From Microbacter margulisiae (GTDB lineage Bacteria; Bacteroidota; Bacteroidia; Bacteroidales; Paludibacteraceae), in NCBI RefSeq assembly GCF_014192515.1, contig NZ_JACHYB010000001.1, positions 1,612,001-1,676,000 of the forward strand: a stretch of DNA of 64,000 bases, written 5' to 3'. Numbering within the stretch: position 1 is the first letter of the stretch; each line of letters starts with the position of its first letter. Of this stretch, positions 5,313 through 46,998 are shown in pieces. Both the position numbers and the translations under genes were made by a program. The notes beneath the pieces were generated by a model, which was not told where the DNA came from, made no database searches, and saw nothing but the letters and a program-made list of their open reading frames with translations.

Positions 5313-5487
5313 CTGTTTGGCATTTATTTTCAAAAGATCAGATCGATATCATGTTTCACAATAACATAAACCATTTTTTCAAAGCACTTTATGAAACATC
5401 TCTTTTGTGTTCGATCATTTAATCATCCATTTTGACTTACAAAAATAAACCAAAAAGGGAAAAATGATATTGTATCTCAGATTATTA

Positions 5488-5518
5488 TTGCAAAAAAGGA
5501 CAAAAAATCAGATATTTG
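5488..5518 (+). promoter_or_regulatory. Candidate promoter for reductase-like gene
   Basis: TTG at 5488-5490, then 20 bp, then GATATTTG (one mismatch to TAnnTTTG), 19 bp before the ATG at 5537. On the other strand TATTTTTG (about 5444-5437) is a candidate -7 box for the divergent holin-like gene. Confidence 0.35.
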
Positions 5519-5536
5519 CATCATCAAACGAACATC

Positions 5537-6301
5537 ATGACATTAGAAACACTCCGGATCATCGCCTTTATTTGGATTGCCATGGCTGTGATTGTACATA
5601 TCACCCTGTTTTATGTCACGGCTCCTTTCGGAAGGCACACTACAGACAAGTGGGGCTGGACTGTCAACAACAAACTGGCTTGGGTTGTAATGGAATTTCC
5701 ATCTTTATTCGTGATGGTTTACTTCCTTTTGGCAGGATCTAACTCTATGCAACCCTTTGTTTGGTTACTGTTTGCTCTTTGGATTATCCATTACATCAAT
5801 CGTAGCCTGATTTATCCTTTCCGCATCCGAAAAACACCAAGGAAAATGCCGGTAATCATTATGCTAAGCGCAATCTTTTTCAACATAATTAATGCAGGAT
5901 TAAACGGATATTATCTGGCGTCATTGGCTCCGGTACAACATTATAATGCGACATGGTTAGGAACGCCTCACTTCCTTATAGGCATAATACTCTTCCTGAC
6001 AGGAATTTTCATCAATTGGAAAGCCGACAATATACTCATTCATTTACGGAAACCCGGCGAAACCGAATATAAAATTCCCCAGGGGTGGTTATTTGATTTT
6101 GTTTCGTCGCCCAATCTGCTGGGTGAAATCATCGAATGGACAGGCTTTGCTCTCATGGCCTGGAATTTGCCAGCATTTACCTTTATGATATGGACATGGG
6201 CCAATCTTATCCCCCGTGCCCGAAATCATCATGAGTGGTATTTGCTACATTTCCCCAACTACCCCCGAAACCGAAAAATTATCTTGCCATTTATGTATTA
6301 A
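5537..6301 (+). CDS. Steroid 5-alpha-reductase / DUF1295-like membrane protein
   Basis: The 254-residue polytopic membrane protein has six or seven hydrophobic segments. The C-terminal third carries the signature of the 3-oxo-5-alpha-steroid 4-dehydrogenase family: SPNLLGEIIEWTGFAL, NLIPRARNHHEWY and FPNYPRNRKIILPF. Eukaryotic relatives reduce a C=C bond with NADPH; the bacterial substrate is unknown. I prefer the ATG at 5537 to the TTG at 5516. It is divergent from the holin-like gene and probably monocistronic. The family is clear; steroid chemistry should not be assumed. Confidence 0.85.
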   Translation: MTLETLRIIAFIWIAMAVIVHITLFYVTAPFGRHTTDKWGWTVNNKLAWVVMEFPSLFVMVYFLLAGSNSMQPFVWLLFALWIIHYINRSLIYPFRIRKTPRKMPVIIMLSAIFFNIINAGLNGYYLASLAPVQHYNATWLGTPHFLIGIILFLTGIFINWKADNILIHLRKPGETEYKIPQGWLFDFVSSPNLLGEIIEWTGFALMAWNLPAFTFMIWTWANLIPRARNHHEWYLLHFPNYPRNRKIILPFMY

Positions 6302-6344
6302 AGCTGTACAACTTCATCCGCGAATCTCAATTTTTCTCCAGACA

Positions 6345-7112
6345 TCAAATATTTTTCCTGATAATAAATTGCCGAAGTTTTGTCACATTTTTCAGAAACA
6401 AAGCAAGCATGGGACAAAAAATTTGATTTCGTTGCAAACTTTGGTAGTCTTCCCGCATCTTCTGTACTATATTCGGTAGGTTACGATTACTAATGCCACC
6501 ACTTCTCATCTTTACGATAAGAGTGGATAAATACACCATCCGTAATTTTTCATTCTTAAAGATACGCAATAAAAAATCATAATCAGCAGATATCTGTAGC
6601 TTGGGATCATACAACCCATTATGCTGATAAACTTCCCTTCGCACAAAGACAGTTGGATGAGGTGGCATCCATCCTCTTTGAAGTAATGCATCCGTAAATT
6701 CCTTGCTTTCCCAATAACGAATGGCTTTAGTAAGGTTTGAATGCTTTACATATACCAGATCCCCATAAACCACATCGGCGTGGTACGTTTCAAAAACATG
6801 ATGAATACGGGATAATACATTAACTGAAGAAAAGACGTCATCCGAATGAAGAAACCCCACGATGTCTCCCGTTGCCATGCGGATGCCTTTATTCAGTGCG
6901 TCATATATACCGCTATCCGGTTCACTGATCCAACGCATTCGATTCCCCAATCGACAGGCATATTCTTTAATAATTGCTACTGTATTATCCCGCGATTGAC
7001 CGTCGATAATGATATATTCAATATCTGAAAAAGTTTGTGCTAATATTGATTCTATTGCTTCCCGTATGGTATCAGAACTATTATAAGCTACAGTAATAAT
7101 GGAAATCCGCAT
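6345..7112 (-). CDS. Glycosyltransferase family 2
   Basis: This 255-residue cytosolic or membrane-associated GT-A glycosyltransferase starts with SIITVAYNSSDTIREAIESI. It has the donor-binding motif IIIDGQSRDNT, EPDSGIYDALNKGI and the metal-binding HSDDVF. It resembles WcaA/WbbD-like enzymes and is paralogous to the family-2 enzyme at 27938-28696 (IIIDGGSTDST, NGISDAFNKGIRLA). It is the last gene of a minus-strand cluster of four glycosyltransferases and a polymerase. Donor and acceptor cannot be predicted. Confidence 0.9.
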   Translation of the reverse strand: MRISIITVAYNSSDTIREAIESILAQTFSDIEYIIIDGQSRDNTVAIIKEYACRLGNRMRWISEPDSGIYDALNKGIRMATGDIVGFLHSDDVFSSVNVLSRIHHVFETYHADVVYGDLVYVKHSNLTKAIRYWESKEFTDALLQRGWMPPHPTVFVRREVYQHNGLYDPKLQISADYDFLLRIFKNEKLRMVYLSTLIVKMRSGGISNRNLPNIVQKMREDYQSLQRNQIFCPMLALFLKNVTKLRQFIIRKNI

Positions 7113-7306
7113 CTATGCTTTTTATTATGTTAAACACTGATCTACGACTTTGCCATATTCATCAAAATCGAAAATCCCGGGAAGAATCTTTCAATCATTA
7201 AAGATAGACAAACAATTTATATATAACGGAGAATTTTTAATCTTATTGCATATTGACCGACAAAAAAAGCAACTATTCATAGCTTATTTTCCACAAATAA
7301 TTGATT

Positions 7307-8353
7307 TTAAATATTCTGCAACAATTGAACAGTTTCACAGCCTACCTTCTCCCACGAATACTTTTGGGCAACGATAAAAGCTTTTTTCTGTAGCTTTTTT
7401 CTGATTTCTACATTCTGCAATGAATCTATCAACTGAGAACATACGTGAACATCATATCGATCAAACAACAAGGCTCCCTCTCCTGCAATCTCTTTTACAG
7501 CGGGACACGCAAAAGCAACCACAGGACATCCGGCACGCATGGCTTCCACCACCGGTACTCCAAACCCTTCGTATTGGGATGGATGTATCAGACACGTTGC
7601 AGCATTATACAATTCATTCAATCGACTCTCGGTGATCCCTTGCAAATGTTCCACCCTATTCCTTACCTCGGTCATTAAAGCCAATTCCCGCTTCGAAAAA
7701 TCGCCTCCTCCCACAACCGTTAATCTCCAACCTGGGTTATGTTTCAACAATGCTATCACAAAATCAAACCGTTTATATGCTGCCCGGCTTCCGACAAACA
7801 ATAAAGAGTTGGGACGAATAGTAGAATCCATTGGGAAGAAGCAAGGACTCACACCGCTGTAAATAACCGATATCTGTTGTTCAGGATAGTTATACACAGC
7901 CATTAAATCGCGCTTTGTAGTATATGAATTGCAGATAATATGATCCGCTTTTTTAACAGCACGCCTTTTCATAAAAATGGCCACCTTATTCTGCAAACCC
8001 TTCATATAAAACTCCTGAATGCAGTCATGAAAAGTGAGCACATTGATCGCATTCCGATTCGATGACACCCTGTAATAGCTCGAATAAAAAATAAATTTAT
8101 CTTCTTGCTCAGGTAGGTGTAATGAAAATAACCTCGAAAAGTAATAATGCTTCCTCTGGATCATATGATCTGAAGGCATCATCCTCTTTATTTCCTGATC
8201 GTAAATATTGGCGCTACTGTTTTTATACTGAATATAATACACAGCTTGTTGCAATTCCGATCGGCTTATACTCGACAACAACTCTTTCCAGCGAATAGAA
8301 ATGCCGCCCGCTTTTTGAATGGAAAAAATAATGTTATCTAAATAGATCTTCAT
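7307..8353 (-). CDS. Glycosyltransferase family 4
   Basis: The 348-residue GT-B glycosyltransferase has LLFVGSRAAYKRFD at the start of its C-terminal Rossmann half and the family-4 donor site PSQYEGFGVPVVEAMRAG (the E-x7-E pattern), followed by PVVAFACPAVKEIAGEGALL. The N-terminal segment AGGISIRWKELLSSI is typical of mannosyl- or rhamnosyl-type enzymes acting on lipid-linked glycans. It lies 26 bp downstream of the polymerase gene, so it is co-transcribed. The sugar specificity is unknown. Confidence 0.9.
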   Translation of the reverse strand: MKIYLDNIIFSIQKAGGISIRWKELLSSISRSELQQAVYYIQYKNSSANIYDQEIKRMMPSDHMIQRKHYYFSRLFSLHLPEQEDKFIFYSSYYRVSSNRNAINVLTFHDCIQEFYMKGLQNKVAIFMKRRAVKKADHIICNSYTTKRDLMAVYNYPEQQISVIYSGVSPCFFPMDSTIRPNSLLFVGSRAAYKRFDFVIALLKHNPGWRLTVVGGGDFSKRELALMTEVRNRVEHLQGITESRLNELYNAATCLIHPSQYEGFGVPVVEAMRAGCPVVAFACPAVKEIAGEGALLFDRYDVHVCSQLIDSLQNVEIRKKLQKKAFIVAQKYSWEKVGCETVQLLQNI

Positions 8354-8379
8354 AATTGCGTTAACAATATTATCATCCT

Positions 8380-9492
8380 TTAATACATCGTTCTGAAATA
8401 GGTTGTATTGAGAAATAATCCTTTGTAAGGATCAAACAGATCAGGAAACGAAGCAATGCTTTGGTATAAAAACAACACAGCAAAAACCAAAAGGACACAC
8501 GCGACAATAGTTCTGTTCTCTTTACCTTTAAATAATAAAAGTTGCGACGAAAGCAACAAGGGTTCCATCATATTAAAATAAAAACTTCCCCGGCTGATCA
8601 TCACCAACAATGTATTCGCAAACAGAAAGTAAATTACCAGGCCCAGAATATAACCGTTCAATAATAGCGTATAATAGGGCAATTCATCCTTGAGTTTTTC
8701 TCTTTGGTAAAGAAAGAAAGCAACAAACACGATTCTTTTCAACAAGCCTGTAATAGATAATTGATTCTGTCGCACATTATCATTCAAATCGTTCAGATAT
8801 TGATTGATATGGCTTGCCGCATTCCCTCCCAATAAGCTTCCTGCTTTAGAAAAGAGCATCAAAGGAACCTGACTCTCCCCAATCACAAAGGCAATCGCTA
8901 AAATCAATACGATATAATACACACGGATTTGACGGTTCATGAAATAAAACACGCCAAACATAATGGCAGAAGTATGAAAACTGGCAGCAACCGCAACCAG
9001 CAAAAAGAAGATCCAGGGTTTGGCTTCAACAACATACCGCAAAGCACAAAAACAGATGGCAAGAGCAATAAGCTGGCGGTTTGAGCCCAACATCCCCATT
9101 GAAAGGGTATAAAACATCAACAGGGAAATATAGAAATAAGGAGCATAACGCTCAAAACTTTTAAAAATAAGCAGATAGAAAATGATGGCATGTACCAGTA
9201 AAAAAAGCGAATAACTGGTGGAGATCATCTTCATGAGATAAATAAAAACATCATACCCGATCTCCATCCCATTTTGCAACGGCGACACGGAACTCCAGTC
9301 GGTAATGGAATTGAAGTGATCCAGATAGGTATTCCAGTCAGTTCCGGTCTCCCATCGAAGTCCGACCTGCAGCACCAACATCAAAAACATCGCATATTTC
9401 ATCCACCGCCATGTTCTGTCCGATAACTCATAATTGATATCCAACAGGGCAAAGAGAAACAGGACAAAAATGGTAATATAATAAACCGTCAT
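8380..9492 (-). CDS. EpsG-family polysaccharide polymerase
   Basis: The 370-residue membrane protein has about ten hydrophobic segments and the EpsG hallmarks: GLRWETGTDWNTYLDHF near residue 45-60, NGMEIGYDVFIYLMK, and GSNRQLIALAICFCALRY with the SFHTSAIMFG loop. EpsG-type proteins are Wzy-like polymerases that join lipid-linked repeat units outside the inner membrane. The start overlaps the stop of the upstream glycosyltransferase by 4 bp (ATGA), which indicates translational coupling. This is the second polymerase in the window; the other is at 28719-29957. Confidence 0.85.
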   Translation of the reverse strand: MTVYYITIFVLFLFALLDINYELSDRTWRWMKYAMFLMLVLQVGLRWETGTDWNTYLDHFNSITDWSSVSPLQNGMEIGYDVFIYLMKMISTSYSLFLLVHAIIFYLLIFKSFERYAPYFYISLLMFYTLSMGMLGSNRQLIALAICFCALRYVVEAKPWIFFLLVAVAASFHTSAIMFGVFYFMNRQIRVYYIVLILAIAFVIGESQVPLMLFSKAGSLLGGNAASHINQYLNDLNDNVRQNQLSITGLLKRIVFVAFFLYQREKLKDELPYYTLLLNGYILGLVIYFLFANTLLVMISRGSFYFNMMEPLLLSSQLLLFKGKENRTIVACVLLVFAVLFLYQSIASFPDLFDPYKGLFLNTTYFRTMY

Positions 9493-10559
9493 TTCAAAGC
9501 TCTGTTATACAACAATTTATACGCTTCCATCATTAATTCGTTAGAGAACCGATGTTCATAATAACCCCTAAAATCATAGTTGTCCCGATTTGTCAAGGCA
9601 AACCGGATAGCACAATCCATAGCTTCAACCCGATTGTCAAACAAAAAATCGTTTGAAATAATAATCTCGGGAATCGCACAACAATTCGAAGCAATCACAG
9701 GTTTATTGAACAGATACCCTTCTATAATAGGCATTCCAAAACCTTCCCCGTAGGTTGCTGTAACCATCACTAAAGCACATTGTGCATATAACGCCAACAA
9801 AAGCTGATCATCCACATATCCTAACATCCGGATATTTTGCAGTCCTTTTTGGGTAATTTGCTCCTGATAATATTCCAGTAAAGGACCTTTCCCGGCTACG
9901 ACAAATGTACGCCCATCAACTTGGGAAAACTCTGCCAGCTTGATCAGCAGATCAATGCCCGCCCGCTCTTCTATACTTCGTACAATCAGGATAAAATCAT
10001 CCTTTTTTACAATATCATCTGCCCAGCTCCGACCATTGTTACTCATCGGTTCATAATGGGAAGTATTGGGGATAATACTATAATTGGTTCGTCTGCCAAA
10101 CAACGATTGCTCCATAGCAAACCGTGAAACAAAATGAACCCGGCCACACCGATAATAGAGCAGCTTTTCGAGCAGATAAAAAATCAACCTCCCACGTTTA
10201 TGTTTGCTCTTATCCAAATAATAAAGAGCGTCATGCACCGATAAAATACCGGTTCTATAGATTAAAAAAGCCGAAAGCAGGGCATTATGTGAATGAATAA
10301 TCAGATGCTTCTGCTTTTGTTTAATTTTGAAAAGGATTGCATTCAGTCGCACCGGCCAAAACCAGTCATTCTTAAGCGATAGGCAGATATAGTGGCGTCC
10401 ACCTTTGTATGCGGTTGTGCTCTCTCCCCAATGGATATAATAGATGCGCTGAAAACTATACGACTGCGATTGCATTTCAATGACGTTTTCGACCCCGCGC
10501 TTATGGGTTTGATACGCGTTGCTTCCAAAATATACAATGGCAGGTTGTTTTTCAGTCAC
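9489..10559 (-). CDS. Glycosyltransferase family 4
   Basis: The 356-residue GT-B enzyme has an N-terminal half with KRGVENVIEMQSQSYSF. The C-terminal half carries ILIVRSIEERAGIDLLIKLA and the donor site ATYGEGFGMPIIEGYLFNKP, then VIASNCCAIPEII. It overlaps the EpsG gene by 4 bp. A predicted promoter sits about 60 bp upstream, so this gene may start a transcript with the polymerase and two further glycosyltransferases. The sugar specificity is unknown. Confidence 0.9.
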   Translation of the reverse strand: MTEKQPAIVYFGSNAYQTHKRGVENVIEMQSQSYSFQRIYYIHWGESTTAYKGGRHYICLSLKNDWFWPVRLNAILFKIKQKQKHLIIHSHNALLSAFLIYRTGILSVHDALYYLDKSKHKRGRLIFYLLEKLLYYRCGRVHFVSRFAMEQSLFGRRTNYSIIPNTSHYEPMSNNGRSWADDIVKKDDFILIVRSIEERAGIDLLIKLAEFSQVDGRTFVVAGKGPLLEYYQEQITQKGLQNIRMLGYVDDQLLLALYAQCALVMVTATYGEGFGMPIIEGYLFNKPVIASNCCAIPEIIISNDFLFDNRVEAMDCAIRFALTNRDNYDFRGYYEHRFSNELMMEAYKLLYNRALK

Positions 10560-10617
10560 AGTTCTCTATGGTCAAAAGGGGTGAAATTTAATATAAATCC
10601 GTTTTACTCATAAAATA

Positions 10618-10649
10618 CAAAGCTACAATGTTTCGGTCTGTTTACCGAA
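10618..10649 (-). promoter_or_regulatory. Candidate promoter with upstream 6-bp inverted repeat
   Basis: On the minus strand the -7 box TAGCTTTG (10625-10618) precedes the glycosyltransferase ATG at 10559 by about 60 nt. Just upstream an inverted repeat TTCGGT-N6-ACCGAA (10632-10649) overlaps the -33 region and could be an operator or the 3' hairpin of the upstream gene. Confidence 0.4.
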
Positions 10650-10724
10650 CGCATATTGATTTTTTTGTAGCTCCTAAAGCGAAATGTGACATAACGTTCT
10701 ATTCCGCTCAAAAACAAATCAACC

Positions 10725-11639
10725 TCATACCTTAAGCCGGGATTGTAAAAATTGAAGATATACTCGTTTTTCCTTCGTATGCAACCGGGAATCAAACACA
10801 ATCGGTATTCTGATAACAAAATAGAGAATACGAAATAATAGGTAGTTCCAATATTTCGAATGCTTGCGAAAATAGTAAAACATACTCGTCTCATGCTGCA
10901 TACGCCTTGCAGTTGAAAAATCCGGTCTTTCATCGCTCCTGCCTTCTAAATGAACTATTTTGGGCTCTTTCATAATAATTCTCTGGTATCCGCCACTTGG
11001 CTTGCCCATTCTGTATTGTAAATCAGCATCTTCAAAATACATAAAAAAAGCAGGATCAAAACCATTGAATTGCTCCATGACCGATGCCTTTACAAACAGG
11101 TCAGCACCCGTAATGTAATCTACCATGTAAAATGGCGTTGAAGCATCATAACAGTACATCTCCTGCCCCCGTTTCCGGATTAAATATCCTCGTTCCACAT
11201 AACCCGACAAAACGTCATGAATCGTTCTCCACATGGAAGGATATCTTCCCGAAGAATGAACAATATTGTCATTTTTATCCCGTAAAATAGTTCCCAGTGC
11301 ACCAATATTTCCCTCTGCATAATGCGTATAAAAATCATAGAATAGTTTGATGGCATTGTTTTGGATCAGGGTATCCGAATTCAGCAACAACAGATAAGTC
11401 CCGCTTGCGACCTTCATTCCCATATTATTTGCCGCACCAAACCCTACATTCGTATCGTTTTCAATCAACTTCACCTGGGGAAATTCAGTTCTTATAGCTT
11501 CTAAAGAATCATCCTCCGAGTGATTATCTACCACAATAATCTCATACGCTATATCGCAGGTATATGTCACGATCGAACGAATACATGGCATAACCAGTTC
11601 TTTCGTATTGTAATTCACTATAATTACAGAGACATCCAT
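10725..11639 (-). CDS. Glycosyltransferase family 2, rhamnosyltransferase-like
   Basis: The 304-residue GT-A enzyme has DVSVIIVNYNTKELVMPCI, IIVVDNHSEDDS, the NVGFGAANNMGMK motif, LLLNSDTLI and MYFEDADLQYR. This is the WbbL-type (dTDP-rhamnosyltransferase-like) subgroup of family 2. The C-terminal 50 residues are basic and hydrophobic (YWNYLLFRILYFVIR), consistent with membrane attachment. It is separated from the next gene downstream by 165 bp that hold a candidate promoter. Rhamnose as donor is a guess from the subgroup. Confidence 0.88.
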   Translation of the reverse strand: MDVSVIIVNYNTKELVMPCIRSIVTYTCDIAYEIIVVDNHSEDDSLEAIRTEFPQVKLIENDTNVGFGAANNMGMKVASGTYLLLLNSDTLIQNNAIKLFYDFYTHYAEGNIGALGTILRDKNDNIVHSSGRYPSMWRTIHDVLSGYVERGYLIRKRGQEMYCYDASTPFYMVDYITGADLFVKASVMEQFNGFDPAFFMYFEDADLQYRMGKPSGGYQRIIMKEPKIVHLEGRSDERPDFSTARRMQHETSMFYYFRKHSKYWNYLLFRILYFVIRIPIVFDSRLHTKEKRVYLQFLQSRLKV

Positions 11640-11689
11640 CTAAGTACACGTATTACTTATGTTAGTCGATACTGGACAGTATATAAGCA

Positions 11690-11985
11690 GATTGAAGGAT
11701 CGAAGGATTGAGTGATTGAGGGTTCTAACTTCCGTAACTTATTTAATTTCATACTGTTCAGATTCCTACTATACTACCGTCCACCAGCTACTACACTACT
11801 TTGAGGTTGTTATCTTCTTTTCTTCATGCAACTTCCTTAACTTCTGACCTTCCTTAACTTCCTACTGTTTTATCGGTTATTCTGTTACTCCGTCATTCAG
11901 TTATTCAGATTTCCTACTACACTACCATCTACTCACTACTATCTACTGAATAGTTATCTTCAAATTTTCATTGTCAATTGGATTC
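11690..11985. repeat. Mosaic of short intergenic repeat phrases
   Basis: There is no gene here. The segment is built from short phrases that recur across the window: GATTGAAGGATCGAAGG-like, ACTTCCTTAACTTC-like, CTGTTTTATCRGTTATTCTG, CAGTTATTCAG, CTACTATCTACT and TTTTCATTGTCAATTGG. It abuts the AbiEii stop codon directly. Confidence 0.75.
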
Positions 11986-38859: not shown

Positions 38860-39786
38860 CTAACAATTAATACACTTAAAATCTTCTATATGCAACTCAA
38901 GCCCGGCTTGTTGCCGTAAATAGCCTTGTGATCCAGCTACTGAAGCAAAACAATCTTGAATTCCAATTCTCTTTATAAAAGGAAAGGTTGATAAACTACC
39001 TGCCTCTATTAAATCATTAATACTCTCTAAAACAACGGAACCAAAACCGGCTGCTTTTTGATGCTCTTCTATCGTAATAATTTTTTGATGGGTTTTACAT
39101 ATTGCAGCTAATACTTCTATATCAATGGGTTTTGCAAAAGGGAAACTATAAACAGATGCTTTTATATTATTATCTTTAACAAAATCGACTACGTACTTCA
39201 ACATAGCACCCGTAGATAGAACCGCAACTTTATTTTCTCCTTCTTGTATCTTTAGAATTTCGCCTAATTGAAGATGTTCTATTGGGCCTTTATGCACTAA
39301 TGGCTCTCCTGCTTTACCAATTCTTATATAGCATGGACCTTGGTAATTACAACAAAATGTTGTAATGGCTTTTGCTTCAAAGGGATCTCCTGGAGCGCAT
39401 ACAACCAAATTAGGAATTGTGCGTAACATTCCTATTTCTTCAGTGGCATGATGGGAAGTCCCTAAAGGGCCATAAGCATATCCACCTCCCACAGCCACAA
39501 TTTTAACATTAAGATTATGATAACAAATATCGTATCTTATTTGTTCCATACAGCGCAAAGTAGGGAAATTTCCAATCGAATATATGAATACACAATATCC
39601 TTCCATTGCAAGCCCAGCGGCAATTCCAGCCATATTTTGTTCTGCTATACCAACATTCAGATACCTTTCAGGAAACCTTTCTGCAAAAGGTTCAATTACA
39701 CTAAAGCCCAAATCACCCACTAACAAAAATATTTTTTCGTTATGCGTAGCTTCTTCTATTAATTGATTAATAAATGCTGTTCTCAT
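38860..39786 (-). CDS. Transketolase C-terminal subunit
   Basis: The 308-residue protein has the pyrimidine-binding and C-terminal domains of transketolase: LLVGDLGFSVIEPFAERFPE, YLNVGIAEQNMAGIAAGLAM, HHATEEIGMLRTIPNLVVCA and ITIEEHQKAAGFGSVV. Split transketolases (N and C parts as two genes) act as heterotetramers. The ATG overlaps the N-subunit stop by 4 bp. Its place between flippase and epimerase/RfbH genes suggests nucleotide-sugar tailoring rather than the pentose phosphate pathway; transfer of a two-carbon unit to a keto-sugar is an inference. Confidence 0.9.
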   Translation of the reverse strand: MRTAFINQLIEEATHNEKIFLLVGDLGFSVIEPFAERFPERYLNVGIAEQNMAGIAAGLAMEGYCVFIYSIGNFPTLRCMEQIRYDICYHNLNVKIVAVGGGYAYGPLGTSHHATEEIGMLRTIPNLVVCAPGDPFEAKAITTFCCNYQGPCYIRIGKAGEPLVHKGPIEHLQLGEILKIQEGENKVAVLSTGAMLKYVVDFVKDNNIKASVYSFPFAKPIDIEVLAAICKTHQKIITIEEHQKAAGFGSVVLESINDLIEAGSLSTFPFIKRIGIQDCFASVAGSQGYLRQQAGLELHIEDFKCINC

Positions 39787-40616
39787 CGTATCTCCAGTTC
39801 TTTTATTGCTTCATTATATTGTTCTTCTGATGGTGATTTATAGTGCCATAATAGATTATTCTCCATAAAGGAAATACCTTTCCCTTTAATAGTATTGGCT
39901 ATTATAACTCTGGGTACCCCTTCTATTTTTTCTCTTGTAAAAGCATTAAAAATTTCAGCATGGTTATGCCCATCAATTTCAATAACATCCCAATTAAAAG
40001 CCTTAAATTTTAATTGTAACGGTTCTAATGCAATAACGTCATTCGTATTACCCAAGCTTTGAATTTTGTTGTAATCCACTATTACATTTAAATTATCAAG
40101 CTTATGTTGAGGAGCAAACAAAATAGACTCCCAATTAGATCCTTCGTCTAGTTCACCATCACTAATTAAACAATATACTTGCCACAATTCATGTTTCCTT
40201 TTTGCCGCAAGCGCAAGTCCACAACTAACAGGTAATGCATGTCCTAAACTTCCTGCTGAAATCTCAATGCCAGAAACATAGTGACTTGTATGAGACAAAT
40301 AAATACTATCATTTTTACTGTATGTATTCAAATCTTCAATAGGAAAAAATTGCTTTAAGGCTAAAGTTGCGTATAAACTGGTGCAAGCATGACCTTTAGA
40401 TAATAAAAAACGATCCCTCGCAGGATTAGAAGGATTTGATGGGTCTAACGAGAGTATTTCATTGTATAATACAGCTAAAATATCAACCATGGATAAAGCC
40501 CCACCAATATGAGATGCCTTTGCATTAAAAACCATTTGCAGAGTTAATTTGCGAATACTCTTGGCAAAGTCCTCAGTTTTTTGAGGATGATCATCAATTC
40601 GTTCTTTAATTTTCAT
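39783..40616 (-). CDS. Transketolase N-terminal subunit
   Basis: The 277-residue thiamine-diphosphate-binding subunit has SHIGGALSMVDILAVLYNEI, RFLLSKGHACTSLYATLALK and the ThDP motif LISDGELDEGSNWESI ending in VDYNKIQSLG. It pairs with the C-subunit gene just downstream (4-bp overlap). The start overlaps the epimerase gene by 11 bp, so the three genes are translationally coupled. Confidence 0.9.
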   Translation of the reverse strand: MKIKERIDDHPQKTEDFAKSIRKLTLQMVFNAKASHIGGALSMVDILAVLYNEILSLDPSNPSNPARDRFLLSKGHACTSLYATLALKQFFPIEDLNTYSKNDSIYLSHTSHYVSGIEISAGSLGHALPVSCGLALAAKRKHELWQVYCLISDGELDEGSNWESILFAPQHKLDNLNVIVDYNKIQSLGNTNDVIALEPLQLKFKAFNWDVIEIDGHNHAEIFNAFTREKIEGVPRVIIANTIKGKGISFMENNLLWHYKSPSEEQYNEAIKELEIR

Positions 40617-41658
40617 TATAACTTACAATTGTTCTATAAAACCCTGTTTTTATATCAACTTTTGGAGCCCAACCAATATTTTTAATTTTATTTATATTAG
40701 GAAGAATCCGATTAATATTAGATGGTATGTATCCTGGAGATGTAAATTGTTTATCCATCTTTAACGAAAGTGATTTTTCGGGGAAGAGATCAATTAAAAT
40801 TTTTGCTAGATCTTTAACACTATACTCTTCTGAGGGATTACCCACATTATAAGCTTCACCAATAGACCCATTTAACAAAACATAGAAATAACCTAAAACA
40901 GCATCTTTTATATAGCAATACGCTCTTTGAGCACATCCATCGCTTTTCATTATAATGTCTTGATTGTTGAGAATATTAAACACAAAGTCTGCAAAAACTC
41001 TACCATCATTGGGACTCATCCCTGGTCCATAAGTGTGAAATGGTCTAATTATTTTTACTGGGACATTAAATTGTTTATACCACGAAACACATATGGTTTC
41101 TCCCAATCTTTTGCTTTCAGCATAACATGACCTAACATTCATTGGATCAAGATAACCAAAGTCTGTTTCGTCAATTGCATTACTTGTGTTTTTATTTCCA
41201 TAAACCTCAGCAGAGCTAAAAAAAATGAACATTTCTGTTTGTTGTTCTTTTGCTAGTTTTAAAAGATTAGTTGTTCCTATGACATTAGGATTTATTGTTC
41301 CTACAGGATCTATTCCATAGTATTTGGGGCTCGCTTGGCTTGCAGCATGAATTATGATGTCAATTTTATTTGTTATATTAATCGGGTCACAAATATCTTG
41401 AACTATAAGACTAAAAAAACTCTCTTTCAAATAATCCTCGAATCGAATATTTGCCTTTTCTTCATTCCTTACAATTGCAAAAATATGGGTATTGAATATT
41501 ATTTTTTGCTTGATAAGAAATAAAAAGACTTCAATCCAATATGAGGGGAGCATGCCATTTGCACCAGAAATAAGAATATTTTTATTCGATAATTTTGTCC
41601 AATCTAGGTTTTCTTGACAAATTTGTTCAATGTCTTCCTGAATAATAGTATTTTTCAT
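40606..41658 (-). CDS. NAD-dependent epimerase/dehydratase
   Basis: The 350-residue extended SDR has the NAD-binding NILISGANGMLPSYWIEVFL near 28-47 (GxxGxxxS-like), IIHAASQASPKYYGIDPVGT, FFSSAEVYGNK, and the catalytic YAESKR (Tyr-x3-Lys). The layout is close to dTDP-glucose dehydratase/UDP-glucuronate decarboxylase-like enzymes. In this setting it could reduce or epimerise the product of RfbH, or the product of the transketolase. The substrate is not determined. Confidence 0.85.
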   Translation of the reverse strand: MKNTIIQEDIEQICQENLDWTKLSNKNILISGANGMLPSYWIEVFLFLIKQKIIFNTHIFAIVRNEEKANIRFEDYLKESFFSLIVQDICDPINITNKIDIIIHAASQASPKYYGIDPVGTINPNVIGTTNLLKLAKEQQTEMFIFFSSAEVYGNKNTSNAIDETDFGYLDPMNVRSCYAESKRLGETICVSWYKQFNVPVKIIRPFHTYGPGMSPNDGRVFADFVFNILNNQDIIMKSDGCAQRAYCYIKDAVLGYFYVLLNGSIGEAYNVGNPSEEYSVKDLAKILIDLFPEKSLSLKMDKQFTSPGYIPSNINRILPNINKIKNIGWAPKVDIKTGFYRTIVSYNEN

Positions 41659-41672
41659 AGCCGTTTTATTTG

Positions 41673-42356
41673 TTATTCCCAGTCATCGGTCAGCACATTC
41701 CCAGCCGAAACTCCTTTGGAAATTAATGTTTGTTTGAACGCTTTAATCATGGGAGGTGGACCGGAGACAAAATAGTTTGATTCTAAGCTATTTTCATCTG
41801 CAATGCTTTGTATATTAAGAACCCCGTCTTTATCTTCGTAATACGACTTCACGAATTGAGACGAATTGCACGAACGGGCCAATTCACCCTCGTAAATATT
41901 AAAAGCTTTCAAACGAAATCCCAGATAAATCTTCGGATTAATATACTCATTAAAAGATTGATGCGTAAAAAGTGATAAAAAAGGAGTGATACCGGTTCCT
42001 CCTGCAATAAATACGGTATTTGTTTTATTATGGGGTTGGGTAAACAGCTCGCCGTAGGGAAGTTTTAGCCACACAAATGAACCCTCTTTCAGGGTAGATT
42101 CCATGAGTTGAGTAAACCTGCCTTTAACCGCATAGGTTATTTTAATAGTCGCTTCATCGGGATTACTCTGCATGGAAAAACAACGGGATTCCGGCCATTG
42201 TCCGGTGCCATCGTACGCTTCGTCAATGGCAAGGTGTAGGAACTGTCCCGGGGAATACTTATAAAGACGATCTAGAGATTCAAATTCCAGCGTATATATC
42301 CCGCTAAAGGGATTAATGATTGATTTAACTTGGGATTTATACTTCTTTGATAACAT
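41673..42356 (-). CDS. FAD/NAD(P)-binding oxidoreductase (RfbI/AscD-like, no ferredoxin domain)
   Basis: The 227-residue ferredoxin-NADP-reductase-type protein has the FAD-binding RCFSMQSNPDEATIKITY, GSFVWLKLPYGELF, NAD-binding VFIAGGTGITPFLSLF and YFVSGPPPMIKAFKQTL. In the CDP-3,6-dideoxyhexose pathway the E3 reductase passes electrons from NADH to RfbH. Known E3 proteins carry an extra plant-type 2Fe-2S domain; here no Cys cluster is present and the protein is about 100 residues shorter. RfbH in the window carries its own cluster Cys motif. The role is inferred from the neighbourhood. Confidence 0.8.
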   Translation of the reverse strand: MLSKKYKSQVKSIINPFSGIYTLEFESLDRLYKYSPGQFLHLAIDEAYDGTGQWPESRCFSMQSNPDEATIKITYAVKGRFTQLMESTLKEGSFVWLKLPYGELFTQPHNKTNTVFIAGGTGITPFLSLFTHQSFNEYINPKIYLGFRLKAFNIYEGELARSCNSSQFVKSYYEDKDGVLNIQSIADENSLESNYFVSGPPPMIKAFKQTLISKGVSAGNVLTDDWE

Positions 42357-42413: not shown

Positions 42414-42785
42414 TTATCGGACAACCCGACGAATACCCGCTTTCAGACTTTTTACATTGAAATTGATCAGTAAACCAGTATTTATATGAGAAAATTTAAG
42501 GTAAGTCAGAATCTGGGCAAGATGAACATCATTTAGTGCTTCAACAACTTTCAACTCAATAATAACTTTATTCTCAACCAACATATCTATTCGGTATCCG
42601 CACTCTAATTTGATTTCTTCATAAACCAAAGGTAATGCAACCTCTGTTTCAACATGAAGTCCCCTTTTACGAATTTCGTAAGCCAAACATGCTTGATAGG
42701 AAGATTCTAACAAACCAGGCCCAAGTTCAGAATGGACTTTATAGGCTGCTTCAAGAATTAACCTTGTTATTTCATTAATCTCCAT
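42414..42785 (-). CDS. GxxExxY protein
   Basis: The 123-residue protein has the family signature GPGLLESSYQACLAYEIRKR (G-x2-E-x2-Y) and then a PD-(D/E)xK-like core GYRIDMLVENKVIIELKVVE, ending INFNVKSLKAGIRRVV. Its function is unknown; it is a nuclease-like fold found throughout bacteria. I use the ATG at 42785; the frame extends to a GTG at 42815. It interrupts the rfb operon between rfbH and the reductase and is flanked by ACACAGAG repeats, which suggests insertion. Confidence 0.9.
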   Translation of the reverse strand: MEINEITRLILEAAYKVHSELGPGLLESSYQACLAYEIRKRGLHVETEVALPLVYEEIKLECGYRIDMLVENKVIIELKVVEALNDVHLAQILTYLKFSHINTGLLINFNVKSLKAGIRRVVR

Positions 42786-42799
42786 ACTTTCTTTTAATA

Positions 42800-42877
42800 T
42801 TACACAGAGTTTCACGGAGGGAACACAGAGTTACACGGTGATTTAAAACTCTGAGAGACTCTGTGAATAACTCTGCG
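42800..42877. repeat. ACACAGAG-type repeat, 5' flank of GxxExxY gene
   Basis: Contains ACACAGAGTTTCACGGAGG, AACACAGAGTTACACGGTG and CTCTGAGAGACTCTGTG, continuing as CTCTGCGCTACTCTGCG into the end of rfbH. Similar material lies after the gene. Confidence 0.6.
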
Positions 42878-44476
42878 CTACTCTGCGTACCCTTTTAAAA
42901 AAGATTCAAGGATTTCCTCTGCATAATCAAACATCTCCTTTGTCAACCCCGGATAAGTTCCTAAAAAGAATGTATTATTCATGATATAATCCGTCTTGTC
43001 CAAATGATCCGCAATGCGCCAGTTTTTGTTTACATAACCGGGCTGTTTGGTAATGTTTCCTGCAAATAAATTTCGGGTTTCGATTAAGTTACTATTCAAA
43101 TAACGGGTTAATTCATCGCGGGTAAAAGGCACATTGTCTTTTAACGTAACAATAAAGGCAAACCAGGCCGGATCAGCATTTTCTGTAGCTTCAGGTAAAA
43201 GAAAATAATCGGAGTATTTCGTGAAAATTCGTGTCCATTCGTGAAAATTAGCCTTTCTGCTTTCACAGAATGCCGGTAATTTATCCATTTGTGCGCTTCC
43301 AATAGCCGCCTGAATATCGGTCATTTTCAAATTATAACCTATTTCCGAATAAACATACTTATGATCATAACCTACAGGAAGCTTTCCAAATTGCTGGGTA
43401 AATCGCTTGCCACAGGTATTGTTCTCTCCTCCGGTACAGTAGCAGTCACGACCCCAATCACGAAAAGCGCGTATTAATCTGGCTAACTGGGGATCATTGG
43501 TACATATAGCGCCACCTTCCCCTGTCGTGATATGATGAGCAGGATAAAAAGATATTGTTGAAATATGGCCGAAAGTACCTGTATATTTTCCTTTGTATCT
43601 GCTACCGAAAGCATCGCAATTATCTTCAATTACCCACAAATGATATTTTTCCGCTAAGTCCATAATAACATCCAGATGGAAAGGATTCCCCAAGGTATGA
43701 GCAAGAAAAATACAACGTGTCTTAGGAGATATCGCTTTTTCAATCATTTTTACGTCGATATTGTAAGTAGGAATATCCACATCAACAAAAACAGGAATCA
43801 AACCATTTTGAATGATAGGGGTAATTGTAGCCGGAAATCCTGCAGCAACAGATATCACTTCATCCCCGGGTTTAAGTCGTCTGTCCCCCAGTTTTTCGGA
43901 AGTCAGCGCGGAGAATGCAAGAAGATTGGCGGAAGAGCCTGAATTGGTGAGCAAAACATGTTCAACACCTAAAAATTCAGCAATCTTTTCAGCAAAAGCT
44001 TCAGAAAACCGTCCTTCGGTGAGCCAGAAATCCAATGACGCATCGACAGCATTCGTCACTTCCTGTTCATCGAATACGCGACCGGCATAATTAACCTTCG
44101 ATTTACCCGGAATAAATTCCATCGGCTGAAAACGGGTATGGTGGTATATTTCGGTTTCATTGATTACTATTCGGCGCAGTAACTTAAACATTGCCGAAGC
44201 ATTCAGTTCTGCCAACTCTTTTAGAATAATATCTTTACTGAGAAGAACAATTTTATCCAATTGAAGATAAGAAGCAACGGGAAGAGGAATAGATTTAAAA
44301 TCAGTTTGTTTTAAGATGATCTGATTTCTACTTGGGTAATTTTTTGTTGTGATAAAAGCAAAACGGATATCTCCATATTCATTGGGTTCACTAAGCGCCA
44401 AAACCGGCCTTTTCTTGCTAGAAGATAAATCAGTGTATGGAAACGGCACTTTAAAAATCTTTCCTTTATAATTCAT
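42878..44476 (-). CDS. rfbH: PemK/MazF-type toxin domain fused to RfbH (CDP-4-keto-6-deoxyglucose-3-dehydrase)
   Basis: A 532-residue fusion. Residues 1 to about 105 are a complete PemK/MazF-like fold: GKIFKVPFPYTDLSSSKKRP, FAFITTKNYP, LDKIVLLSKDIILKELAEL. From about 108 the chain is RfbH: EFIPGKSKVNYAGRVFDEQE, TNSGSSANLLAFSALTS, the diagnostic His in place of the PLP lysine (YPAHHITTGEGGA, 311-323) and the 2Fe-2S motif RDCYCTGGENNTCG (343-356), running to the normal C-terminus. RfbH removes the C3 hydroxyl in CDP-3,6-dideoxyhexose synthesis. The first 12-20 residues of a normal RfbH are replaced by the toxin. No stop or frameshift separates the parts. The start overlaps the antitoxin-like gene by 11 bp. 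Internal starts (e.g. Met119) could yield free RfbH. Confidence 0.9.
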   Translation of the reverse strand: MNYKGKIFKVPFPYTDLSSSKKRPVLALSEPNEYGDIRFAFITTKNYPSRNQIILKQTDFKSIPLPVASYLQLDKIVLLSKDIILKELAELNASAMFKLLRRIVINETEIYHHTRFQPMEFIPGKSKVNYAGRVFDEQEVTNAVDASLDFWLTEGRFSEAFAEKIAEFLGVEHVLLTNSGSSANLLAFSALTSEKLGDRRLKPGDEVISVAAGFPATITPIIQNGLIPVFVDVDIPTYNIDVKMIEKAISPKTRCIFLAHTLGNPFHLDVIMDLAEKYHLWVIEDNCDAFGSRYKGKYTGTFGHISTISFYPAHHITTGEGGAICTNDPQLARLIRAFRDWGRDCYCTGGENNTCGKRFTQQFGKLPVGYDHKYVYSEIGYNLKMTDIQAAIGSAQMDKLPAFCESRKANFHEWTRIFTKYSDYFLLPEATENADPAWFAFIVTLKDNVPFTRDELTRYLNSNLIETRNLFAGNITKQPGYVNKNWRIADHLDKTDYIMNNTFFLGTYPGLTKEMFDYAEEILESFLKGYAE

Positions 44477-44681
44477 TCCAAATATCCTCCTCCGGTTCGT
44501 TCAACATTTGTGTCATACCACTTTGTTCCTGTATTTTCATAAGGTCGTATGATGACGTTTCAGTCCCTGTTTCACCTATATTTGTGGGCAATATAATCAT
44601 TTCGGCTTGTACCCCGAAACTGTCAGGTATATTATATTGCTTAAATTCCTTTCTTGGAATAATTCTTTTGATTGCTTGCAT
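44466..44681 (-). CDS. Antitoxin-like small protein upstream of the PemK-RfbH fusion
   Basis: The 71-residue protein has a basic N-terminal part (MQAIKRIIPRKEFKQYNIPD) and an acidic C-terminal tail (SGMTQMLNEPEEDIWNEL), the tail type seen in antitoxins paired with PemK/MazF toxins. The stop overlaps the fusion gene start by 11 bp, the arrangement of a toxin-antitoxin pair. It probably binds and masks the toxin domain of the downstream fusion. The call rests on context and composition. Confidence 0.7.
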   Translation of the reverse strand: MQAIKRIIPRKEFKQYNIPDSFGVQAEMIILPTNIGETGTETSSYDLMKIQEQSGMTQMLNEPEEDIWNEL

Positions 44682-44689
44682 ATGATTCT

Positions 44690-45090
44690 GTTTTTATACA
44701 ATGTTACACGTAGTGATTCTGTTTTATCTTTATTGCTATTTGAGATTTTGACTGAAAAACTGAATAATAAACAATCGAAAATAAAGCAATTGAATGCGAT
44801 TGACAGTTGGCAATAAAAATTTGAAGAAGAGAAGTTCTGAAGTTAAGGATGTTATAACCTTCAATCTTTCGATCCAAAATTCCCATAACAGATTCCTTTT
44901 ACTCAATTCTTTCTTCAGTCCTTCAATCTAAAGGGACGTAGTCCTGAAATCTTAGTAGCACGAAATAGCAAATTACATTACAAGGGGCGTAGCCCTGAAA
45001 TCTTAATGTTAAATTAACAAAACAATAAACATCAAGAAATGAAGGAAATTGTGGTCGTTAAAAGAACTATGAACAACAAGCATTGAATTA
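44690..45090. repeat. Gene-free gap between antitoxin and rfbG with repeat phrases
   Basis: Holds ACTCAATTCTTTCTTCAGTC, AACCTTCAATCTTTCGATCC and two AGGGACGTAGTCCTGAAATC-type phrases (44935, 44985). It breaks the otherwise tight rfbF-rfbG-rfbH order, in line with insertion of the toxin-antitoxin pair here. No gene is seen. Confidence 0.6.
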
Positions 45091-45098
45091 TCTCATCT

Positions 45099-46172
45099 TC
45101 AAATTTTCAAATCTATATATTGTTCTATTTGTTTCTCAGTAATTATTCTCACATCTTCATTGGACAAAAAGGCTTTATTCCAATCGACAATCGATTTTAG
45201 GGTGGTTTCAATATTCCAAAGAGGTTCCCAGCCTAATCTGGCTTTAGCTTTCGAGCAATCCAGTTTCAAATAGGTAGCTTCATGGGGCTGTGGATGATTA
45301 TCAATAGCATACGAAGCATCATTGCCCCACAAGGCACAAATACGTTTTACGATCCATTCGACATTTTTTGCATCTTTATCATCAGGCCCAAAATTCCATG
45401 CTTCGGCAAATGGCGCTCCATCTTGATAAAGACGTTCCGCCAGCATCAGGTATCCTGCCAGAGGCTCCAATACATGTTGCCAGGGTCGAATTGCATACGG
45501 GCTTCGTATCTTCACCTCTTCACCTTGTGTAATAGCCCGGATAAAATCGGGAATCAACCGGTCTTCTGCCCAGTCGCCTCCTCCAATCACATTTCCGGCA
45601 CGGGCCGAGGCAATAGCCACACCATGTTCAGCATAGGTCTGAGAGTTGAAAAAAGAATTGCGAAAAGCCGATGTCACTAATTCAGAGCAGGCCTTACTGT
45701 TCGAATAGGGATCATATCCCCCTAAGGGTTCATTTTCACGATATCCCCAAAGCCATTCCTTATTGTCATAACATTTGTCAGTTGTAACATTGACAACTGC
45801 TTTTATTCTGGTGGTGTGCCGGATGGCTTCCAACAAATGCACTGTCCCCATCACGTTCACTTCGTAGGTTTCCATCGGATTCTTATAAGATTCCCTTACC
45901 AATGGCTGGGCAGCCATGTGGATCACAATCTCGGGCTTTACCTGCTGCAAGGTTAACAATAATCTATTATAATCGCGTATGTCCCCAATAAAAGAAGTAA
46001 CAAGTTCATCAATATGTGCTTCTTCATATAAACTGGGAAAAGTAGGCGGTTCAAGGGCATAACCAGATACAGATGCACCCAGCTTATGAAGCAACAAGGA
46101 AAGCCATGAACCTTTAAACCCTGTATGTCCGGTAATCAATACCCGTTTCCCTTTATAAAAATCTCCAAACAT
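45099..46172 (-). CDS. rfbG: CDP-glucose 4,6-dehydratase
   Basis: The 357-residue extended SDR converts CDP-glucose to CDP-4-keto-6-deoxyglucose. NAD-binding RVLITGHTGFKGSWLSLLLH is at about 10-29, then HMAAQPLVRESYKNPMETYE, VVNVTTDKCYDNKEW and YDPYSNSKACSELVTSAF with the catalytic Tyr and Lys, and GNVIGGGDWAEDRLIPD. All are hallmarks of RfbG. It lies 52 bp downstream of rfbF. Its product feeds RfbH. Confidence 0.95.
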   Translation of the reverse strand: MFGDFYKGKRVLITGHTGFKGSWLSLLLHKLGASVSGYALEPPTFPSLYEEAHIDELVTSFIGDIRDYNRLLLTLQQVKPEIVIHMAAQPLVRESYKNPMETYEVNVMGTVHLLEAIRHTTRIKAVVNVTTDKCYDNKEWLWGYRENEPLGGYDPYSNSKACSELVTSAFRNSFFNSQTYAEHGVAIASARAGNVIGGGDWAEDRLIPDFIRAITQGEEVKIRSPYAIRPWQHVLEPLAGYLMLAERLYQDGAPFAEAWNFGPDDKDAKNVEWIVKRICALWGNDASYAIDNHPQPHEATYLKLDCSKAKARLGWEPLWNIETTLKSIVDWNKAFLSNEDVRIITEKQIEQYIDLKI

Positions 46173-46224: not shown

Positions 46225-46998
46225 TCACCAAATTTTCCATTCGCAATGTTCGGAATTCCACATTGCCTCCAACTCTATTTTATCCCGTAATGTATCCATA
46301 GGTCTCCAAAAACCGGTATGCCGGTATCCTGCCAGTTGGTTATCTCGGGCAATGGTTTCCAAAGGAGTGCGTTCCCAAATGGTTTGATCTCCTTCCGTAA
46401 TGTATTGGAAAATCTGAGGTTCTAGTACAAAAAAACCACCATTAATCCATGCGCCATCGCCTCTGGGTTTTTCCTGAAAAGCGGTAATCATATTTTCTGC
46501 ATTAAGTTCTACTGCCCCGAATTTACCCGAAGGCTGTACAGCGGTAAGTGTTACCAATTTGCCATTTTGTTTGTGAAAATCTACCAATTGATGAAGATCT
46601 ACATTGCTTACGCCATCCCCATACGTCAACATGAAGGTTTCATTACCAATATATTTTTCCACCCGCTGAATACGTCCCCCGGTCATGGTATTCAATCCTG
46701 TATCAACTAATGTGATTTTCCACGGTTCTGCATGGGAATCATGAATTTGAATATCGTTATTACCAAGATCGATGGTAACATCCGCCTGATGCAAAAAATA
46801 ATTGGCAAAATACTCCTTAATGATATATCCTTTATAGCCACAACAAACAATAAACTCATTAAAGCCATATGCTGAATAAATTTTCATGATATGCCACAGA
46901 ATAGGCTTGCCTCCGATTTCCACCATAGGTTTTGGCTTCAAATCGGTCTCTTCACTCAAACGGGTTCCCAACCCTCCGGCTAAAATGACGACTTTCAT
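46225..46998 (-). CDS. rfbF: Glucose-1-phosphate cytidylyltransferase
   Basis: The 257-residue nucleotidyltransferase starts [20 protein letters not shown], with [40 protein letters not shown] and [19 protein letters not shown], matching RfbF. It makes CDP-glucose from CTP and glucose-1-phosphate, the first step of the CDP-dideoxyhexose branch. It lies 111 bp downstream of wzz and upstream of rfbG. Confidence 0.95.

Follow-up and report, generated by a model that had tools for sequence, protein, structure and literature searches.

The described systems closest to the locus considered here are the MazEF/PemIK type II toxin-antitoxin pairs, the RfbH/E1 sugar enzymes and the toxin-antitoxin addiction modules of plasmids and islands. 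Catalysis by MazF is attributed to an Arg and a Thr in the available part of PMC7354611, and the available part of PMC11130411 places the Arg on strand beta2 and the Thr on strand beta3. The function of chromosomal toxin-antitoxin pairs in their host cells has long been an open question. The window, a stretch of 64,000 nucleotides from Microbacter margulisiae (positions 1,612,001 to 1,676,000 of contig NZ_JACHYB010000001.1), contains a toxin that is inseparable from a gene of known function and has kept its antitoxin-like gene, and natural cassette swaps at this site in other genomes are ready-made comparisons.

Architecture of the fused gene

On the minus strand, window positions 44476..42878 form a single open reading frame (ORF) of 532 amino acids with no internal stop. 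The features of the locus, in window coordinates, are:

41673..42356, minus strand: FAD/NAD reductase (PF00175, over the cut-off)
42414-42815: GxxExxY (PDDEXK_3) gene
42878..44125, minus strand: RfbH (CDP-4-keto-6-deoxyglucose 3-dehydrase) part, residues 118-532 plus the stop codon (NF011936; E1 3bcx/3bb8)
44129..44200, minus strand: junction helix, residues 93-116 (model secondary structure; junction comparison)
44162..44476, minus strand: MazF/PemK-like toxin domain, residues 1-105 (PF02452, fold, residue counts)
44466..44476, minus strand: 11-bp overlap of the antitoxin stop and the fusion start (ATG at 44476) (ORF coordinates)
44466..44681, minus strand: antitoxin-like gene, type A, 71 aa, stop TAA at 44466-44468 (ORF, BLAST relatives)
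44486..44493, minus strand: GGAGGAGG, Shine-Dalgarno-like (read from the sequence)
44682..45098, minus strand: gap of 417 bp from rfbG to the antitoxin-like gene (ORF coordinates)
45099..46172, minus strand: rfbG, CDP-glucose 4,6-dehydratase (TIGR02622, 515 bits)
46225..46998, minus strand: rfbF, glucose-1-phosphate cytidylyltransferase (TIGR02623, 430 bits)

The preliminary description of this DNA proposed a PemK/MazF domain in frame with an intact RfbH, and both families are indeed matched within the one stop-free frame: Pfam PF02452 (PemK) at residues 4-103 with 26.6 bits (cut-off 23.1), and the RfbH equivalog NF011936 at residues 98-528 with 683 bits (cut-off 423). Only one of the seven RfbH matches in the source genome passes the family cut-off, and it is this fusion. 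Among solved structures, its best relatives are those of the E1 enzyme, 3bcx and 3bb8, which align from query residue 104 onward. The hallmarks of RfbH are kept, as had been claimed: four Cys and the His that occupies the PLP-lysine place, which we take to be the PLP and 2Fe-2S cofactor-related sites, are invariant in 54/54 fused and 40/40 ordinary cores.

Structure prediction bears out the PemK/MazF fold proposed for the N-terminal domain. Residues 1-118, modelled alone from 64 aligned rows, give a mean pLDDT of 93.7, with six strands and then a long helix. All 50 PDB entries listed in a fold search with this model are MazF-type toxins by title (best E 2e-6), a few of the titles saying just endoribonuclease, toxin, MoxT or mRNA interferase; the B. 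subtilis MazF-RNA complex 4mdx is among them. A comparison of the N-terminal domain sequence with PDB sequences found no match. The model of the whole fusion is poorer (pLDDT 78), and the 50 entries listed in its fold search are sugar aminotransferases/dehydratases, mostly over model residues 145-531. R23 lies on strand 2 and T43 on strand 3 of the toxin model; from the strands on which they lie and from an alignment to free PemK homologues, these residues are predicted to correspond to the MazF catalytic pair as given in the available parts of the papers cited above.

The toxin domain stands in place of about the first 20 residues of RfbH, as first described, and models and junction comparison agree that the first helix of ordinary RfbH is replaced by the last toxin helix. 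In 22/22 fused rows compared, this helix occupies the place of the ordinary first helix, just before an FxPG-like motif. Downstream of the fusion start, in-frame ATGs occur in the window at codons 96 and 119. Among 13 genes examined, there is no conserved internal RfbH start near the junction, because two of them (L009 and L018) have no ATG, GTG or TTG in codons 96-140; free RfbH from an internal start is thus rejected as a conserved feature. The suggestion that RfbH synthesis depends on translation of the toxin holds, since both share a single reading frame.

Gene neighbourhood

Where an ordinary rfbH has an rfbG-like neighbour, it mostly begins 6-40 bp after that gene, an estimate made by placing the rfbH start 26 codons before the core. 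The 417-bp gap of the window contains two 24-nt direct repeats, 92% alike, at 44931-45005. When its 6 frames were compared with 9 queries (54 comparisons), no convincing remnant of an older cassette was found in this gap; a single weak match was to a type-B toxin (types are defined below).

The FAD/NAD reductase downstream is a candidate E3-like electron donor of RfbH. Further downstream of rfbH, at 38860-41658, lie a split transketolase-like pair, recognised by eye from translations, and an NAD-dependent epimerase/dehydratase, which together suggest a modified, perhaps branched, sugar product. The rfbH frame contains a TTCGTGTCCATTCGTG-type repeat at 43218-43255, which recurs with 2 mismatches in the reductase gene at 41850-41865 (2 matches against 0.01 expected). 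The protein sequence at the first repeat, NFHEWTRIFTKYS, is also kept in relatives such as P0002 and P0007, and the repeat may therefore not be an insertion. A ACACAGAGTTTCACGGAG-type repeat, seen by eye at 42800-42885, takes in the RfbH stop as well as the start of the GxxExxY gene.

Distribution of the fusion

A search for homologous fusions in other genomes, as the preliminary description had suggested, found them in 36 other proteins and in loci from several phyla. Including the window's own, 37 database proteins of 467-578 aa carry the fusion (query residues 1-125 only, long proteins allowed); all contain PF01041, a Pfam domain of RfbH type. A profile scan of genome contigs confirmed 12 of 28 candidate stretches, the other 16 failing confirmation; the profile was built from fusions, which biases the confirmed set towards them. 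The confirmed loci come from Bacteroidales, two Geobacter, Anaerolineae, Desulfobacteraceae, Riflebacteria, Oscillochloris, Desulfohalobiaceae, Campylobacteraceae, a deltaproteobacterium, Nitrospirae and Akkermansia, and in 12/12 the toxin domain runs in frame into RfbH sequence. The frame of L012 (Desulfobacteraceae Eth-SRB1, 9956-11694) is broken within the RfbH part, which implies that this locus tolerates loss of the enzyme part, and the type-A fusion of L016 is ended by the contig end. A single recent accident is rejected by the 36 other protein clusters and the twelve confirmed loci.

Surveys with an RfbH query estimate how common the fusion is. Across the phylum, 30 RfbH were found in 29/395 genomes, 8 of them fused, in frames of 540-565 aa; across the order, there were 25 matches in 23/393 genomes, 3 of them partial, and 3/22 near-complete RfbH (window, L077 and L079) are fused. 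With both surveys pooled and the window counted once, 10/51 near-complete RfbH are fused. Each of these ten has a MazF-type domain and an overlapping antitoxin-like ORF, the domains of L030 and L031, which have identical cores, falling under the Pfam cut-off; the remaining 41 either begin with a short N-terminus of the ordinary kind or are interrupted by contig ends. Within one genus, 7/11 RfbH are fused, the same genes as in the phylum survey. In 65 genomes of this genus, five of the PemK matches listed fall in frames of 540-564 aa, all five of them RfbH fusions, and no other match listed is in a frame longer than 213 aa; the weaker L030 and L031 are not among the matches listed. At E 1e-60, a plasmid collection gave 57 records with RfbH-like matches and a phage collection 8; the matches in the 15 plasmid rows listed and in all 8 phage rows begin at residue 100 or later, with no fusion among them.

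Cassette types and the overlapping antitoxin-like gene

At least three kinds of toxin and antitoxin-like pair occupy the same site. Type A is the kind found in the window. In type B (L077, L033, L036, L037, L041 and L055), toxin and antitoxin both differ from type A, and type C is a third pair, found in L016 (antitoxin frame 5342-5590, fusion to 7200). At least one member of each type exceeds the PF02452 cut-off: beside the window, the three type-B members tested (of six) score 42.1 (L077), 37.9 (L033) and 29.8 bits (L055), and type C scores 28.2 bits; L030 (17.6 bits) and L020 (16.5 bits) fall under it. L016 contains a tandem array at 5342-8815, with the type-C pair and RfbH, a shortened type-B pair and a type-A pair that continues into RfbH; the array is a possible intermediate of cassette exchange.

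The coordinates confirm the antitoxin-like gene reported upstream of the fusion and its 11-bp overlap, and the same 11 bp recurs in L009-L019 (12/12 with the window, taking the nearest ATG and, for L016, its type-A gene). Measured from the nearest start codon, L020 and L030 have an overlap of 8 bp, five type-B loci one of 17 bp and type C one of 4 bp; in L077, also type B, it is 14 bp if TTG is the start. An overlapping antitoxin-like ORF is present in 21/21 distinct fused loci with upstream DNA read, those of L020, L030 and type C being assigned by place, size and pattern only. BLAST relatives of the 71-aa gene lie directly 5' of the fusion in 11/12 other loci, and L020 has an ORF of similar look at this place. 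The 71-aa gene of the window has no Pfam or NCBIfam match, and a Pfam search with 14 type-A and 7 type-B antitoxin-like proteins gave nothing better than E 0.04. Because the fusion start sits within the antitoxin-like gene, the two proteins are made together; GGAGGAGG, also within that gene and 9 nt ahead of the fusion ATG, is a putative translation signal.

Exchange of cassettes and selection

In a midpoint-rooted tree of 54 fused and 40 ordinary RfbH cores (94 in all), 16 changes of the type-A label are required, and well-supported branches force at least 11 of them. In a tree of 133 toxins, built by a quick method from few columns, the type-A fused domains form one group (47/47, SH-aLRT 89), in which the sole unfused neighbour is P0041. 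Closely related toxins thus sit on scattered enzymes. Both trees omit the truncated P0020, and the duplicates L031 and L079 were dropped; the RfbH tree also omits L012 (broken), the type-A gene of L016 (contig end), the partial L080, L081 and L083, and L071, which is ordinary; the toxin tree omits P0029 and L020, both of which are included in the residue counts below. Some toxin domains among the kept rows are identical or nearly so (P0004/L009, P0012/P0013), and the counts are therefore not of independent events.

Some pairs of close enzymes carry very different toxins. P0014 and L077 are 89% identical in RfbH but 25% in the toxin, and are sisters in the RfbH tree (support 100/85). L030 and L055, with 94% identity in RfbH but 23% in the toxin, fall in a fully supported clade of six whose finer order is weak, and L016c (from L016) and L018 have RfbH parts 83% identical with toxins 26% identical. 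DNA identity between L030 and L036 per 50 columns is 64-90% in rfbG, drops to background level within the cassette alone (22-52%), is 58% where the junction lies and reaches 80-100% further on, apart from an opening block of 14% on the edge of the alignment; this shows that the cassette has been replaced between rfbG and the RfbH core. L009 keeps a 39-residue remnant of a type-B antitoxin upstream of its type-A pair; compared with four type-B antitoxins, none of 2000 shuffles scored as high as this remnant with any of them.

The earlier suggestion that one pair had landed at the rfbH 5' end and lost its stop codon holds as to the fusion itself, but not as a one-off event in this genome: the fusion is widespread, has been repeatedly exchanged and exists in at least three types.

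Toxin and antitoxin of five type-B loci of one genus are under purifying selection. Over 10 pairs, mean dN/dS is 0.15 (0.08-0.31) for the toxin part, 0.14 (0.06-0.27) for the antitoxin and 0.05 for RfbH, rough figures because several dS values exceed 1.

Possible roles of the fusion

The reading we favour, with belief and doubt about evenly balanced, is that RfbH has captured a type II MazEF/PemIK-like cassette as its N-terminal module, a cassette silenced by its antitoxin and penalising loss of the operon. The antitoxin gene would carry the translation start of the fusion, so that every enzyme molecule would bear a MazF-type RNase domain made together with the antitoxin. The RNase would be silent under bound antitoxin while RfbH does its normal chemistry. 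Were the operon lost or replaced, the short-lived antitoxin would vanish and the leftover fusion could cut mRNA, which would penalise loss of the locus. The data above show the architecture, the fold, the kept catalytic residues, the overlapping gene, purifying selection in one group and the repeated exchange; we infer toxicity, RNase activity, binding and neutralisation by the antitoxin, antitoxin lability and the addiction role. The cassette is swapped as a unit between the rfbG end and the first helix of RfbH, which leaves unrelated toxin-antitoxin types on nearly identical enzymes; the swapping of several pairs at the same spot suggests a link between the sugar genes and a poison-antidote system. 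Against the reading count the lack of a known antitoxin family for the 71-aa gene, the loss of both catalytic residues in P0037, the distance of the fused type-A toxins from free ones and the broken enzyme part of L012. An active domain would make this, to our knowledge, the first metabolic enzyme with its own addiction toxin; it would also suggest a way for surface-polysaccharide loci to resist loss or replacement.

A more tentative proposal, which we doubt more than we believe, makes the rfbH 5' end a recurrent docking site for interchangeable cassettes: surface-antigen operons would be armed, in that residual enzyme-toxin would poison cells that lose the operon or exchange it for an allele with another cassette, and allele competition or phages would drive the swaps.

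The main rival, which we consider unlikely, is domestication, with the MazF fold serving as a non-toxic dimer clamp or docking site of RfbH and the small protein as a partner or chaperone. The fused type-A domains do form one group apart from free toxins, the toxin helix does merge with the RfbH helix, and close free relatives are few: a single-sequence search for short relatives of the toxin domain found 2, one probably a fragment, and of the 183 found by a profile search, the closest inspected mostly look like cut fusions, the clear free toxins being more distant. In addition, P0037 has lost both catalytic residues. However, Arg and Thr are each kept in 55/56 fused domains (78/78 and 77/78 free homologues, respectively), and a purely structural role does not readily account for three different pairs at one site, each accompanied by an antitoxin-like gene of its own.

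Less probable again is autoregulation, in which the antitoxin would act as repressor of the operon and the fused toxin as co-repressor; the level of RfbH would thereby feed back on transcription of its own gene, and toxicity would be incidental. Type II toxin-antitoxin pairs commonly autoregulate, and the overlapping frames and the repeat-containing gap ahead of the window pair would fit such control; yet no operator or DNA-binding domain was identified, and the gap is preceded by rfbF and rfbG. An assembly artefact or read-through pseudogene might be suspected from the many relatives drawn from MAGs or metagenomes and from the broken frame of L012, but it is contradicted by conservation in 36 other protein clusters, by the position of the window within a 2.25-Mb contig and by dN/dS well below 1 for toxin, antitoxin and RfbH alike among the five type-B loci, and is rejected as having almost no chance of being right.

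Comparison with known systems

The preliminary description knew of no fusion of this kind, and none turned up in the literature searched: a search for RfbH with MazF found nothing (most subscription papers and all bioRxiv preprints lay outside its scope), one for RfbH with toxin-antitoxin systems found no fusion by title, and the available part of the type II survey PMC2701414 names none. Like MazEF/PemIK systems, the locus has the MazF/PemK fold, the Arg/Thr pair and a small upstream gene overlapping the toxin gene; unlike them, its toxin runs in frame into a sugar enzyme, and the small partners drew no Pfam match. Like RfbH/E1 (PDB 3bb8, 3bcx), it contains a complete enzyme with His at the PLP-lysine place, the invariant Cys and rfbF-rfbG neighbours, whereas roughly the first 20 residues are swapped for an RNase-fold domain of about 105 residues. 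Plasmid and island addiction modules resemble the proposal made here in that loss of linked genes would be punished; in contrast to these modules, the toxin of the fusion is covalently part of the gene product, and its cassettes are exchanged in place at one gene.
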